From the NCBI RefSeq assembly GCF_000002865.3, contig NW_001865051.1, forward strand, positions 818,047-860,546: a DNA stretch of 42,500 bases. The letters are read 5' to 3'. The notes under the pieces are model-generated. The model searched no databases and had not been told where the DNA came from. It saw nothing but the letters and a program-made list of their open reading frames with translations. Source of the stretch: Monosiga brevicollis MX1 (taxonomy: Eukaryota > Opisthokonta > Choanoflagellata > Craspedida > Salpingoecidae). Below are positions 25,590 to 31,910 of this stretch, piece by piece; the first letter of the stretch is position 1; each line of letters opens with the position of its first letter. The translations under genes were made by a program, and so were the position numbers.

Positions 25590-26278
25590 ATGTTGCGTCT
25601 TGTTTGCTGCTTGGCCGTTTTGGCCCTGGCTGCTGCCCAGATCCCGGCCCGTTGCGCCTCTCCGGCTCAGTGGTCTGGTAAGTTCATGGCACTCGATCCG
25701 TGTCGCACGCACGCACACAACACCTTGGTATTGTTTTTTCGCCTCTGTGGATCTCACCTTCACTTGCACACTCGATAGCCCAGGCCTTTGTCCGTGACTC
25801 GGAACGTGGGCAAACCGAGCTGATTGGGACCCGTTATTTCTACGACGCCGTCAACCAACGCAAGGCCCGCTTTGACCAGGTCGACGCCGATCGCAACACC
25901 AGCTATTTTATTGTCATTGAGCTGCACCAGGAGGGCACTGAATACATCTACGACATCCAGAGCCGCAGCTGCAAGAAGCAGGACCTCCGCCGTCCCTTCA
26001 TCCCCCACTCTGTCGTTGACAACGCCACCTACCACGGTGACTATATCATTGGTTCCAGCGCCACCCCCGACTCTGGCGTCGAGATTGAAGTGTGGACCCA
26101 CCGCTTCGAGTCTGAGCACGGCACCTTTGAGTGGACCGGCGAGTTCACCCGCAGCCACTGCTTTCCCGTGGAATCCCATGTCGAAGGCCGTGGCTTCTTC
26201 TTCGTCGAACAATTCATTGACATTGTCGTCGGTCTCCCCGACCCCAACGTCTTCATCCCCCCCGAGGAGTGCCAGTAA
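25590..26278 (+). CDS. Secreted ependymin-family protein
   Basis: Two exons (25590-25677, 25779-26278) give 195 residues. A clear signal peptide (MLRLVCCLAVLALAAAQ) is followed by C-x-S-P-x-Q-W, then YFYDAVNQRKARFDQV, SYFIVIELHQEGTEYIYD, SRSCKKQDL, WTGEFTRSHCFPVES and a C-terminal IPPEECQ. The spacing and the conserved cysteines (CASP, CKK, HCFP, EEC) match the ependymin/EPDR1 family. Members are secreted or lysosomal lipid-binding glycoproteins with a LolA-like beta fold. Length is typical. DNAT and DRNTS give possible N-glycosylation sites. It is expressed away from the Caprin-like gene and converges on the SH2 adaptor. Confidence 0.9.
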
Positions 26279-26617: not shown

Positions 26618-28695
26618 TCAATAAGTGTCAAAGGGCGCATCAAAAGCGGGAGGTGCGCTCGGATTGCCAACCGAGCGAGGCTCACGCACTTCAACATGTA
26701 CGTCATCCGGTTGATACTCGTCAGGCACAATCAACTCAACGTCGCACGAAGACAGGTACCCGTTTTGCCCGTTGCAAAAGCCCTGCCACTCGCCCGATTC
26801 ATGTTGTGCAGTCACGTGCACAACATCTCCAGCCTCGTATGTGAGCCGACCCGGCTCATACGCGCTTGCCTGACGCGTCCGCAGAGCGCGGTAGGGTACA
26901 GGTGCCTCGGCTGCCACTCCAAAATGCAGATCAGGGTTGGGAATGCCATCCAAAATGCCGTAGGTGTCCTCCTCAAACTCAGCTTCAAAGATCGGCGCAG
27001 GCACGGGCCCACCCAGAACAACGGCATTGGGTGGGATGCCGTTTGCGGCCAAGCCGCTTGAGGCACTAGAGCCCGAACGACTATTTGCCTCTCCCGCCTA
27101 CAGCAGAGTCCAGATGTAAAGAACAGAATAGGCAAGAGAAATAAAAAGTAAGTGTGAAGACCCGCTACCTGTCGACCTCTGGTTATGCAGCGCACACCAC
27201 GAAAGCAAGCACGCACCACGCCGGGAGAGACGGGGGCTGGCGGCGGTGCTACGTGCTCGTGATCAAAGCTAACGGGCATGTGCGTGGCCGGATCCGTGCC
27301 AAGTTGTTCCGAATGCATGGGCACTTGCGCACTATAGCTCGTTGGCCGTCCGGTTGTATTAAGGCCCGGGTTCACAAACCCGTTCCCTTCCGCTCGCCCA
27401 GCCTGCCACACCCATCGCCGTCATCCATTACACAGCCAGCGCCAGCCATGAGCCTTACATCTTCAAATGATAGGATCCCCAACACCCTGTCAGCTCAGAC
27501 AAGCATACGACACACACACCTTCTGCTTCCGCATGAACCGGCTGGAAATGCGACTCAGCGCTGCACGCGCCTTGGATTTTTGTGCAGGGTTGGATTTTCT
27601 GAGTTGGCCAAGACAAAAACCCACCCGCGCGCAAACATGAGAACTGCGTGAGCCTAAATGTACCCTTGTGCATGGTGTCGACCGAGCTGTGGCATTGGAA
27701 AACGGACTTGGACTGCGAAGTTTGCACAATGTCAGCCAGGGCTGGCTCCCGCTGCACACGAGCCGCAAACTCCTCGTTCTGCATCAAAGATGCGATCCGA
27801 ATATCCTCCATTAAAATGGCGTTGCGCTTGTTCGTCTCGATCGTCTCCAGCAACTGTAGGTCAACCCAACCAAACAATAAGGAACGGTGAGTGCAACAGG
27901 GAGATTGACACACCCAAAGCATCAGTAATAATCCCTACAATCCGCTAACAAAGCGCAAGAGACAGGTCCGGGCACGAGCAGCTGTTTTCCTTTTCATTTG
28001 CTCTTCTTGTTCTTTGTCTTTTTGGTGTACATCACTCGCATTCATTTACCGTACCTGAGCAGCGTCGGGGGTGTCAAAATAATAAACGCCGCGAAAACGG
28101 CCTTGGCTCACAATCACGCGCAGCGTGTATTGCGACTCGGATGCCACTTGCTCAATCTCATCATATGCGATAATACCCAAATCGGGGCCCTCCTGCGTCA
28201 GTAACACGCGCATGTCCATCTCGGTGGTCTTCACAAAGCATTCTTGGGATGGCTCACTCAGGCGTGACAAGCCTACAGGTTATCGGTGCCACACCAGCAG
28301 AAAATCCGACTCGTGTGAGACTTGGTTCACTAAGACATGGTCGGTACTGCCAGGGAGGTGACCGTACCAAACTTTTCAATGTCTTGTGTTTCGTGAATTC
28401 TTACTGCAAAAATATAGTCGCCTGCATATGGTGGTATCTAAGTCGCAGAGAGGTGGTTGTCTCTGCATGAGGACACACGATGCAGCAAGCAAATATGAGG
28501 ATACAGGACGTACGTCGGGCTCTCCCACTGGTCCGCTACTCGCAGCTGCATCCCATTGAGGGGGGGTGTAGCTCAGGCTGCAGTCCAACAGAGATGAAAA
28601 GCCCAAGAACAACCAACAAGGGCCACGTCGTGAGGAAGGCAAGCGAAGAACAAAGGGAAGACCGAGTGTGAGCAAGAAAGTGAGGCAAGAGAAAG

Positions 28696-28731
<36 letters not shown>

Positions 28732-30188
28732 AGAAGAAGAAGCGTAAAGAAACAAGAAACAAAGAGCCAGTCTGAAAGGTCGCACCTTTGAGCTCGAGTG
28801 TTGCGGCGACCTTCCTTAGCCGTGTAGGAAAAGGTCGGGCTGCTGATGGGGGGGTTCTGAGGCGGTGGCGGACGATGAGGCGAAGTGGAGGCCGGGCGAT
28901 GATGGACAGAAGAATTGCGCATGCGACTCTGCATGCTGGCACTGATGCCGGGGACACTGGCATACTGATCGTCGCCATTGATGAGAAGCTCAGAGGCGGC
29001 ACGCGGCACGTGCATGTTGAGGGGAGTAAGCCAGCCGTGCTGAGGTTGAAAATCAGACAAAAAATGGATCAAGCCTTCCAAGGTGTCGGCTTCAATGTCA
29101 AATATTTGGTAGCAGGTGTGGCCAGCGTAAATAATATGGTGCAAAATGTCATCGCGGTGGCACAAGCTCAAAACGAAAGCGCCCGGGACACTGGTGCTCC
29201 TGCGAACTAGGAAGAGACCATCGGCAGCGCCTTGCTGTTTAAGAAGGGCCTCGGCAACCTCACGCGAGATCTCACCGTGTAACCAGTCGTTGGCGGATCG
29301 GGGCTGCTGGCGGATTGTTTGGGCAGTGTCGGCTTGGCTTGCAGCCGAGTCTGGGGCGGGTTCATCGCTCATGGCCTTGGCCAGCAGAAAATCAACGGCG
29401 GTGTCGATGCTGCCTTTGCTCAAGCGCAGGGCCTCCTCCAGATCCGCACGAGGGGTGCGAGAGAACATGCCCTGTAGATGATCTAGGGCCTGACCAAAGG
29501 CGTCAGTACTGGTGGATGCGGCGGCCTCCACGTGGGCGTGTACTGTTTGGTGATCGAGTTGCATGTACTGGTCATCACTGTGATTGACAATGCTACCGTG
29601 AGAACGCTCGTGGCTAGCCGCAGGTGGCTGGGACGCTGCTTCTACGTTGTCCGAGGCGTCCGTCATGACATAGCCTGTATCAAGGGGGACCTGAACTTGA
29701 TCGCTCTCCACGGTGACGTAAAGCTGCTGGTCGACCGCACGCATCAGATCTTCGACGGAAGGAGGGGGCAGGTTGGACCGTTGGCGTGAGGCAAACTGGG
29801 GGGTAGCAGGTGGCGATGTGGTTGCCGAGGCTGCTAGAGCAGGTGATGTTGTGAGCGTAGAGGACAGGAGTTTGGGCACGGCATATGTTGATTCGGTCAG
29901 GTGTGTTGCGGGGGGCTGGTCATTGGGCGTAGTTGCCGTTGGGTTTCGAGATCGGCTTTTGTCCACGAGGGTGAGTTTCATCGCCACGGCGTCTTTGATT
30001 TTCAGCAAGAGACGACGACGCAGAAGTTTTGAATTGAGGCCAAGTTCTTGGAGCATTTCATCGTCGAGCTCCATGAGCAGCTGCCCATCGACTCGGTTTT
30101 TCAAGAAGGCAGGTTTTAGTGCCTGTAGCTCGATGCTTTGCAACCATTGACCCACCTGTTCAGGGGTCCATTTTGGAATGGCCGTCAT
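26618..30188 (-). CDS. SAM-CUE-SH2-PTB-like-SH3 signalling adaptor
   Basis: Seven exons (30188-28811, 28421-28368, 28272-28055, 27853-27708, 27598-27520, 27402-27217, 27097-26618) give 846 residues with no kinase or other enzyme domain. SAM is at 6-68 (WTPEQVGQWLQSI). A CUE-type ubiquitin-binding helix bundle is at about 234-272 (LDHLQGMFSRTPRADLEEAL, TAVDFLLA). SH2 is at 301-395 (DWLHGEISRE, FLVRRS with the phosphotyrosine-binding Arg329, HHIIYAGHTCY). A PTB/PH-like fold is at about 453-560 (GDYIFAVRIHETQDIEKFG, RGVYYFDTPDAAQLLETIE). SH3 is near 755-811 (VPYRALRTR, GEWQGFCNGQNGYL). Tyrosines in acidic contexts (DDQYMQL at 209, DDQYASV at 409) are candidate phosphosites. The PTB call is by pattern; the others are firm. 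It is head to head with PACSIN. The exon 4/5 junction is the least certain. Confidence 0.85.
28696..28729. repeat. 34-base poly-A in the adaptor's first intron
   Basis: Homopolymer A on the plus strand, so poly-T on the coding strand, followed by AAGAAG units. It lies in intron 1 (28422-28810). The long frames reading Phe runs through it are artefacts. Confidence 0.97.
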
Positions 30189-31910
30189 GACGGCAATTGA
30201 CCGATGCAACGGTAATGAGGGTCAAGTGACAGGCCCACTTCTGATCAATGTGCGTCAGATGCTTTGGGGAGAGCCGTCCTGCAAAAAGCACTGGACCCGT
30301 GGCAGCGCAGGGATGTAAAATGATAATCCGGGATGCTTTTGTTTTTATTTCTGCTTGTTTTTTTTTTCTTTGGTAAACCTGGCTTCCGCAGCAGGCGCGG
30401 GCCCTGCAAGGTATGCTGCCCTAGCGCCAATTCAAAGTCGTGGCAGTGCAAGAACCACAGCTACCAATTGCAAGAGTAGTAGCACACGAGCACGCTCGGA
30501 ACGGATCAGATGAATGCGCCTCGGCTGAGAAGAACTTGATGAAAAATGCCGGTGTCTGCGGCTCTGGCGTCAATCGGCTGACGCACGGTTCCTATCCCAA
30601 GCCCACCGAATCCCGTGAATGACACAAACAAATCAACTCAAGCAAAGCAACCCACTGACGGGGGCGCACGGCAAGCCACCGCCAACTCTCATAAACGCTT
30701 GACACACACACCCAAAGCACTCAAAAAAGTAGTAAAAAAAGAAAGGCAGGCGAGGTCCACAAGACCTGCTGCCGCCATCAGCACTGCGAGTGTCAATGCC
30801 CGTACCTCCTTGTAGCAGGCTAGCACTTTGTGACGCCTGACTGCCATCCGTCGTCAGCGAGCGTTGAGAGCAAAATGAAGGACCAGCCAGTGAGTCAAAG
30901 GCAGGCAGAGAGGCGGACCAAAGCGAAACGTAAAAGCAGAGATAGAGGCAGGCGGTCACACTCTAACGAGCAGATACAAGGGCAAAAGAGAGAGCCGCAG
31001 AGAGTGCGTCAAACCCTTGCCCCTACCCGAGAGATGTACACGCCTGAAATCAAACACTACAGCAACGCAAGCAAAAGAGGCAAAAGAAACAAAAGTAAAG
31101 GGGGCACACACATAACAAGCAGAAAACACACACAAGTGCTGAGTACATGTAGCTGACTTCAAGCCTCAAGTGCAACTGTTGTCACACTTGATCTGCTCAA
31201 AGGTGCACACGAATCGTTGAGCCGTTCGAGTCTCCATGGAGACTCGAGCAGATTCAACAGACACCAAAGCATCTTGCGTGCATGAAGGCATGCGCGCGCG
31301 ATCAGCGAAGATGTGTCCGCGCAAGTGTCGGGATGGAATGCCTGGCGCGCTTCTCGGTCAACCAATGCCGCAAGCCAAAGCAATGAAGACGGACGGGAAA
31401 AAAGGCTGACCGCACTTGGCCTTGCGTTGGCCTTTGCTTCTTGCTAGTTACGGGCTATCGTGTGTGCGTCTCTCGCTGTGTCCCACCTTTTGTCTTGACC
31501 GCCCGCTGCATCGCCCACCTCATTGGCGCCCCGTGGCATCATCCTCGGGCGACCTCAAGGTCGTCATTATCCCCATCTTGGCGCTTCACAAACGTCGCCG
31601 CCCGTTTACCTCGAGCCAGCCCGTTGCTGGCACCGACACTCTGTTCGTCGACCTGCTGGACAGTGCGGGTATCTTGTCGGTTGGGCGTGATAGTCACGCT
31701 CGAATCACCGTCGGCCCTGCTCAAGCGCGGCAGTGTTGTGCATGCGAACCGCCTCGGCATTGAGCACGCAGCTTCATGCATCTCGCACGATCACCATCAT
31801 CATATCAAATGCTGCAATCTCAGCCCACCTCGATCGGCAGTGGCCCCGCCGCTGGGCCGCGCCTGACGCCTCTCCATGACGTCAATGCCAAGATTGCTCG
31901 CGCCAATAAG
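30189..31910. other. Divergent promoter interval, SH2 adaptor and PACSIN
   Basis: About 1.7 kb with no convincing exon. It contains a 22-bp perfect palindrome (31226-31247), a TCAAGTG...CACTTGA hairpin (31167-31191), and a 14-mer AAAAAAGGCTGACC (31398-31411) that also occurs at the inferred RPS11 start. The plus-strand reading frame is open from 31776 into the PACSIN start, so a longer PACSIN N-terminus is possible. Confidence 0.5.
31226..31247. repeat. 22-bp perfect palindrome
   Basis: TCGAGTCTCCATGGAGACTC followed by GA is self-complementary over its whole length with no spacer. It lies in the adaptor/PACSIN promoter interval and could be a dimer-binding site. Confidence 0.85.

Follow-up and report, generated by a model that had tools for sequence, protein, structure and literature searches.

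UBASH3/STS, CBL and STAM each connect signalling by tyrosine kinases with the binding or ligation of ubiquitin and carry SH3 or SH2-like parts, in the layouts UBA-SH3-phosphatase, TKB-RING-UBA and VHS-UIM-SH3 respectively. Tensin and Shc combine an SH2 with a PTB domain in one protein (in the order SH2-PTB in tensin), and GRB7, GRB10 and GRB14 are arranged as RA-PH-BPS-SH2. CRK has an SH2 domain followed by two SH3 domains (PMC5043372). CUEDC1, a little-understood animal protein for which binding to Smurf2 has been reported (PMC7655170), contains only a CUE domain by Pfam in the human protein, together with PPVY and PPAY motifs and a conserved basic tail. We analysed a window of 42,500 nucleotides from the choanoflagellate Monosiga brevicollis MX1 (contig NW_001865051.1, positions 818,047 to 860,546), in which a predicted gene model for an adaptor protein on the minus strand (26618..30188 of the window) looks real. 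On balance we think it probable that this is a single gene for a scaffold about 844-864 residues long, with SAM, CUE, SH2 and PTB/PH-like parts, a helix resembling a motif interacting with ubiquitin (MIU) and an SH3 domain, in which the CUE and the later QNEEF helix form a pair of the CUEDC1 type. Its domains differ from those of UBASH3/STS, CBL and STAM, from which it is set apart by description only. The features on which the argument turns are as follows.

29991..30173, minus strand: SAM domain, residues 6-66 (Pfam SAM_2, E 1.4e-14; PDB matches liprin-beta-1 and SARM1).
29385..29492, minus strand: CUE domain, borderline by Pfam score, residues 233-268 (Pfam CUE, E 2.9e-4; best PDB match 2dhy; predicted helices).
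29064..29285, minus strand: SH2 domain, residues 302-375 (Pfam, E 1.2e-13; best PDB matches GRB7 and GRB10, E from 5.8e-14).
27749..27811, minus strand: CUEDC1 block MEDIRIASLMQNEEFAARVQR, a putative MIU-like helix (aligned to human CUEDC1; CUEDC1 C-terminal profile).
26756..26893, minus strand: SH3 domain resembling the C-terminal SH3 of CRK, residues 772-817 (PDB matches CRK and CRKL).

CUEDC1 sequences of human, rat and Tasmanian devil, with QNEEF, are given in Table 3 of PMC12027864. A profile made from these three matched the window protein twice and in CUEDC1 order, at the CUE domain (E 7.9e-5) and at the QNEEF block (E 5.5e-6; both E-values are those of a one-sequence search). Smith-Waterman alignment to human CUEDC1 scored 59 for the block and 64 for the CUE, and none of 5000 shuffles equalled either score (maxima 48 and 43). 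The C-terminal CUEDC1 profile gave 13.8 bits, a value not equalled in 20,000 shuffles of the whole protein (best 7.6). With the same profile the window exon ranked first (E 0.0041, the next at 1.6) among 1575 six-frame open reading frames (ORFs) drawn from the window region and eight other CUE regions of the genome. Three genomic sites match an exact back-translation of QNEEF, and the two outside this gene have no CUEDC1 context. Both CUEDC1 and the window protein have a CUE with an F-QA-D---MF start and a later ED-RIA--xQNEEF block; of the four marks of the CUEDC1 family that were sought, two, a CUE and an ED-RIA--LQNEEF block following it, were found. The preliminary description of the locus had suggested that the LMQNEEF helix may be a further interaction element. 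The helix is there and, by more than chance, matches a block conserved in animal CUEDC1, a relationship that goes beyond that description; its binding to ubiquitin is a prediction.

The core of the block reads A-x-x-M-Q-x-E-E, and that of human CUEDC1 A-x-x-L-Q-x-E-E. Set against the full MIU consensus as generally known, the alanine and the Met-Gln pair in EDIRIASLMQNEE stand at the expected spacing (by eye, without a profile), and the core looks compatible with an MIU ubiquitin-binding helix. CCDC50 carries an MIU, and the exon at 27708..27853 gave a weak Pfam match to CCDC50_N (E 0.1, under the cut-off), which is only a faint pointer in this direction. In the RNF168 MIU, exchange of Ala for Gly is reported to weaken ubiquitin binding (PMC2699339). 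Leu-Gln is described as highly conserved in MIUs, and a Leu/Gln mutant of ZUFSP as retaining activity (PMC5824887). No paper treating CUEDC1 together with 'motif interacting with ubiquitin' was found in a literature search.

The SAM, SH2 and SH3 assignments are solid, and that of the CUE is borderline by its Pfam score. In the joined protein of 862 residues Pfam placed SAM_2 (E 4.4e-14), SH2 (2.0e-13), CUE (7.6e-4) and SH3_2 (2.0e-5), so that four domains of the SAM-CUE-SH2-PTB-like-SH3 order first proposed were recovered; the PTB/IRS-like fold had neither a Pfam nor a relevant PDB match. The best PDB matches of the SAM domain were liprin-beta-1 (E 1.3e-10 summed over three SAM domains, none passing singly) and SARM1 (1.2e-8), and its profile match places it in the SAM family with predicted self-association. 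When the whole genome was scanned, the CUE reached 24.3 bits; six of the nine CUE places listed, this one included, exceed the cut-off. In the PDB it matched 2dhy best, which is the CUEDC1 CUE, though the E-value of 0.021 is modest. Residues 210-405, modelled by AlphaFold from the single sequence (mean predicted local distance difference test score, pLDDT, 55.1), have three helices at residues 228-241, 247-256 and 261-273 (block-mean pLDDT 73-88, the last block 63), in agreement with the CUE helices anticipated at residues 234-272. Fold searches using this model were uninformative for the CUE.

The SH2 domain is closest by sequence to the GRB7/GRB10/GRB14 group. Among the best 60 of 172 distinct PDB sequences at E <= 0.001, GRB7 and GRB10 took the first five ranks (E 5.8e-14 to 9e-14), with SYK and SHP2 next. 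The segments GLFLVRRS, WLHGEISRE and LHHII align with GRB7, and the pocket residues are common to both. As the preliminary description had noted, the FLVR arginine is retained (GLFLVRR); the alignment also retains a flanking Arg and His, at what we take to be the pocket positions. By sequence the pocket is intact, and phosphotyrosine binding is predicted. In the AlphaFold model this part forms helix, strands and helix in the expected order, at low confidence. The RA-PH-BPS-SH2 layout of the GRB7 group is not seen in the window protein, where the extra domain comes after the SH2.

A canonical PxxP-binding SH3 groove has the ALYDY tyrosines and, further on, a Pro and a Tyr. The window SH3 has ALRTR in place of ALYDY and GYLSSCDV at the Pro/Tyr end, and retains the Trp (by eye); the groove residues are largely gone. 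Its eight best matches among 57 distinct PDB sequences (E <= 0.1) were all CRK or CRKL, the best being 2ggr (E 5.8e-9). In two CRK/CRKL chains of 303-304 residues the match falls at 237-297, which is the C-terminal SH3, and the short CRK/CRKL chains presumably represent the same domain. This non-canonical SH3 of CRK is reported not to bind proline-rich targets (PMC5043372). CRK lacks a SAM, a CUE and an MIU-like helix, and the window protein, with one SH2 and one SH3, does not follow the SH2-SH3-SH3 order of CRK.

We scanned the genome (39.5 Mb in 57 contigs) and found 114 SH2 places at E <= 0.001. A Sec1-family piece of this genome (L011) aligns with PDB 2xhe chain A, the UNC18 protein of M. 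brevicollis, at E 6.4e-25; 47 of 49 columns agree, the exceptions being the two outermost, which makes M. brevicollis very probable as the source. Only one of these, the adaptor gene, has a CUE place (of nine) within 10 kb on the same strand, and none has a UBA place (of 13) or a UIM place (of 12) within that distance and on that strand. A SAM place (of 29) within 6 kb accompanies four SH2 places, which fall at three sites. At G000:C52:274601-277504 and G000:C36:434252-437523, SAM and SH2 matches lie close together on one strand, and these are candidate SAM-SH2 proteins. Because the scan treated each exon separately, it may have overlooked domains that introns interrupt. Titles and abstract openings yielded no literature on such an adaptor, and the 2008 surveys of the M. 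brevicollis tyrosine-kinase network may well list the gene, perhaps as an SH2 protein.

We propose that the SH2 domain would dock the protein on tyrosine-phosphorylated receptors or substrates, while self-association through the SAM domain would raise avidity. The CUE and the MIU-like helix would hold ubiquitin on the same cargo, and activated kinases or their substrates would in this way be gathered for ubiquitin-dependent sorting. For the atypical CRK-type SH3 we expect a role in regulation or dimerisation, not in the recruitment of proline-rich partners. Several linker tyrosines stand in an acidic context (e.g. residues 208, 409 and 749) and could make the scaffold itself a kinase substrate. 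The idea of a scaffold tying tyrosine phosphorylation to ubiquitin had been put forward in the preliminary description; sequence supports this link and the presence of SAM, CUE, SH2 and SH3 in one gene, and the docking and sorting roles are the conjectural part.

The open frame of the gene runs on the minus strand from an ATG at 30188, through exons joined by GT-AG junctions of matching phase, to a stop codon at 26620-26618. Its parts are listed here.

28811..30188, minus strand: exon 1, with SAM, CUE and SH2 (continuous open frame; donor GAAG|GTCGCC).
28368..28421, minus strand: possible 54-nucleotide exon, adding DYIFAVRIHETQDIEKFG ahead of the PTB-like region (phase 1-1 fits both neighbours).
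28055..28272, minus strand: exon carrying the PTB/PH-like core (open frame; codon use resembling that of coding sequence).
27708..27853, minus strand: exon for the QNEEF block and the helix that closes the PTB-like region (phase-0 junction to the preceding exon).
27520..27598, minus strand: exon with a basic segment (phase-consistent join; alternative start 27560).
27169..27402, minus strand: linker exon (phase-0 joins, donor ACAG|GTAGCG).
26618..27097, minus strand: final exon, which contains the SH3 domain and the stop codon (open frame; Pfam SH3_2, E 2.2e-6).

The donor of exon 1 was picked because its phase fits the exons that follow. Codon scores were positive for 28272-28055, 27853-27708 and 27598-27520 and negative for 27402-27169, which makes the linker exon the least certain. 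The exon at 27708..27853 has a weak donor of its own and an alternative end at 27664. We put forward the 54-nucleotide exon because it would give the PTB-like region a first strand. Its codon score is weak (14% of 834 open non-coding windows score at least as high), and its inclusion brought up no PDB match and nothing relevant in Pfam. Direct joining predicts 844 residues, inclusion of the 54-nucleotide exon 862, and the latter with an alternative border between exons 3 and 4 gives 864; the gene span first described is upheld, and the length of 846 residues is replaced by these three values. A further stretch at 28577-28515 (minus strand) has a good acceptor and a GTACGT donor, fits the rest of the gene in no phase and has a codon score near zero. 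It is a possible alternative exon.

Whether the region after the SH2 reads phosphotyrosine is a separate question, and here we lean on balance towards the view that it does not, being either a degenerate domain or a different PH-superfold domain whose ligand is lipid or protein. Neither of two joins gave a PTB, IRS or PID match in Pfam scans, and PDB sequence searches gave no relevant match; the sole Pfam trace on the joined region was RME-8_N (E 0.034, far under the cut-off). A continuous read-through from exon 2 across the intron into exon 3, modelled by AlphaFold, gave strands and then a helix at low confidence (mean pLDDT 57.3). On the other side, hhalign comparison with profiles of DOK1/2/5, FRS3, talins and two genome loci aligned the last strand and helix, and only these, to IRS-type profiles (combined P 0.014, probability 3.1%; for the halves, P 0.065 with DOK/FRS only and 0.024 with the talin type; all without a shuffled control), which is too little to decide. 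The PTB/IRS-like fold of the preliminary description is accordingly not borne out, and of its two phosphotyrosine readers the SH2 alone is supported, because the PTB-like region lacks an assignment. With PTB identity putative, the likeness to tensin and Shc is one of description only, and their other domains differ. One locus met in this work, L003 (G000:C54:804438-807698), has a talin-type F3 domain that closely resembles those of vertebrate talins (E 1.7e-40 to PDB talin-2).

Several observations weigh against a scaffold with a CUEDC1-type pair. For the CUE, the exon-1 translation gave 20.9 bits and the joined protein 19.5, both below the Pfam cut-off of 21.1. With a CUE-only CUEDC1 profile another CUE of the genome, at locus L018, scored higher (14.0 bits) than the window (11.5), whereas Smith-Waterman alignment to the CUEDC1 CUE ranked the window (64) above L018 (60). 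No PP.Y motif is present in the 862-residue model, although human CUEDC1 has PPVY and PPAY (by eye), and the basic tail of CUEDC1 (DKLKHMGKSTRRKL...) is not shared (score 21, equalled by 3083 of 5000 shuffles). With PPxY and tail absent, the window protein is a relative of CUEDC1 or a chimera, and orthology is unproven. A 50-residue human CUEDC1 query returned no candidate in the genome at first look. Finally, the splice joins 3' of the QNEEF block are uncertain, and ubiquitin binding by the block is read from its motif.

The missing tail and PPxY and the better fit of L018 to the CUE profile could also mean that the gene is a lineage-specific shuffled adaptor, which gained its CUE and its MIU-like helix in separate events as generic ubiquitin contacts and came to resemble CUEDC1 by convergence. 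Domain combinations unseen in multicellular organisms are indeed reported for M. brevicollis tyrosine-kinase proteins (PMC3082566). We nevertheless regard such convergence as unlikely: the shared block (ED-RIA--xQNEEF----QR) exceeds the bare A-x-x-L-Q core and follows the CUE in CUEDC1 order, and it was the block that came first of the 1575 ORFs. Still less probable, indeed quite improbable, are two genes or transcripts: a SAM-CUE-SH2 unit that stops within the long first intron, and another that comprises the PTB-like region, the QNEEF block and SH3. The first gap is indeed long (28810-28273, 538 nucleotides), contains a 34-base A run on the plus strand (T on the coding strand) at 28696-28729 and is entered by an exon-1 frame open to 28536 (a 561-residue ORF). 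Yet the exon phases join without stops, and the resemblance to a single animal protein, CUEDC1, bridges the gap, with the CUE before it and the QNEEF block after it; whatever the splice signals, this resemblance speaks for a single gene.

Two neighbouring elements were also recorded. An Ependymin-family gene (Pfam Ependymin, E 2.6e-38 on 25682-26275) lies at 25590-26278 on the plus strand, in convergent orientation to the adaptor gene, and by eye its first exon, from about 25590, resembles a signal peptide. A perfect palindrome, TCGAGTCTCCATGGAGACTCGA, was likewise seen by eye at 31226-31247, upstream of the adaptor gene and outside any gene identified.

For the single scaffold with its CUEDC1-type pair, we suggest tentatively, as an origin that is possible though not the likelier outcome, that CUEDC1 began before animals in a phosphotyrosine-ubiquitin scaffold whose CUE and MIU-like helix bracketed the SH2, and that animals lost the SH2, SAM and SH3 domains, or that the choanoflagellate inserted them; SAM, SH2, the PTB-like region and SH3 are what the window protein has beyond CUEDC1. 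If this is true, animal CUEDC1 would be the carrier of a second, unrecognised ubiquitin-binding helix. The scaffold in itself would give CUEDC1 a non-animal relative and form a direct physical link between phosphotyrosine and ubiquitin outside animals, and the QNEEF helix would be a testable second ubiquitin contact in human CUEDC1.

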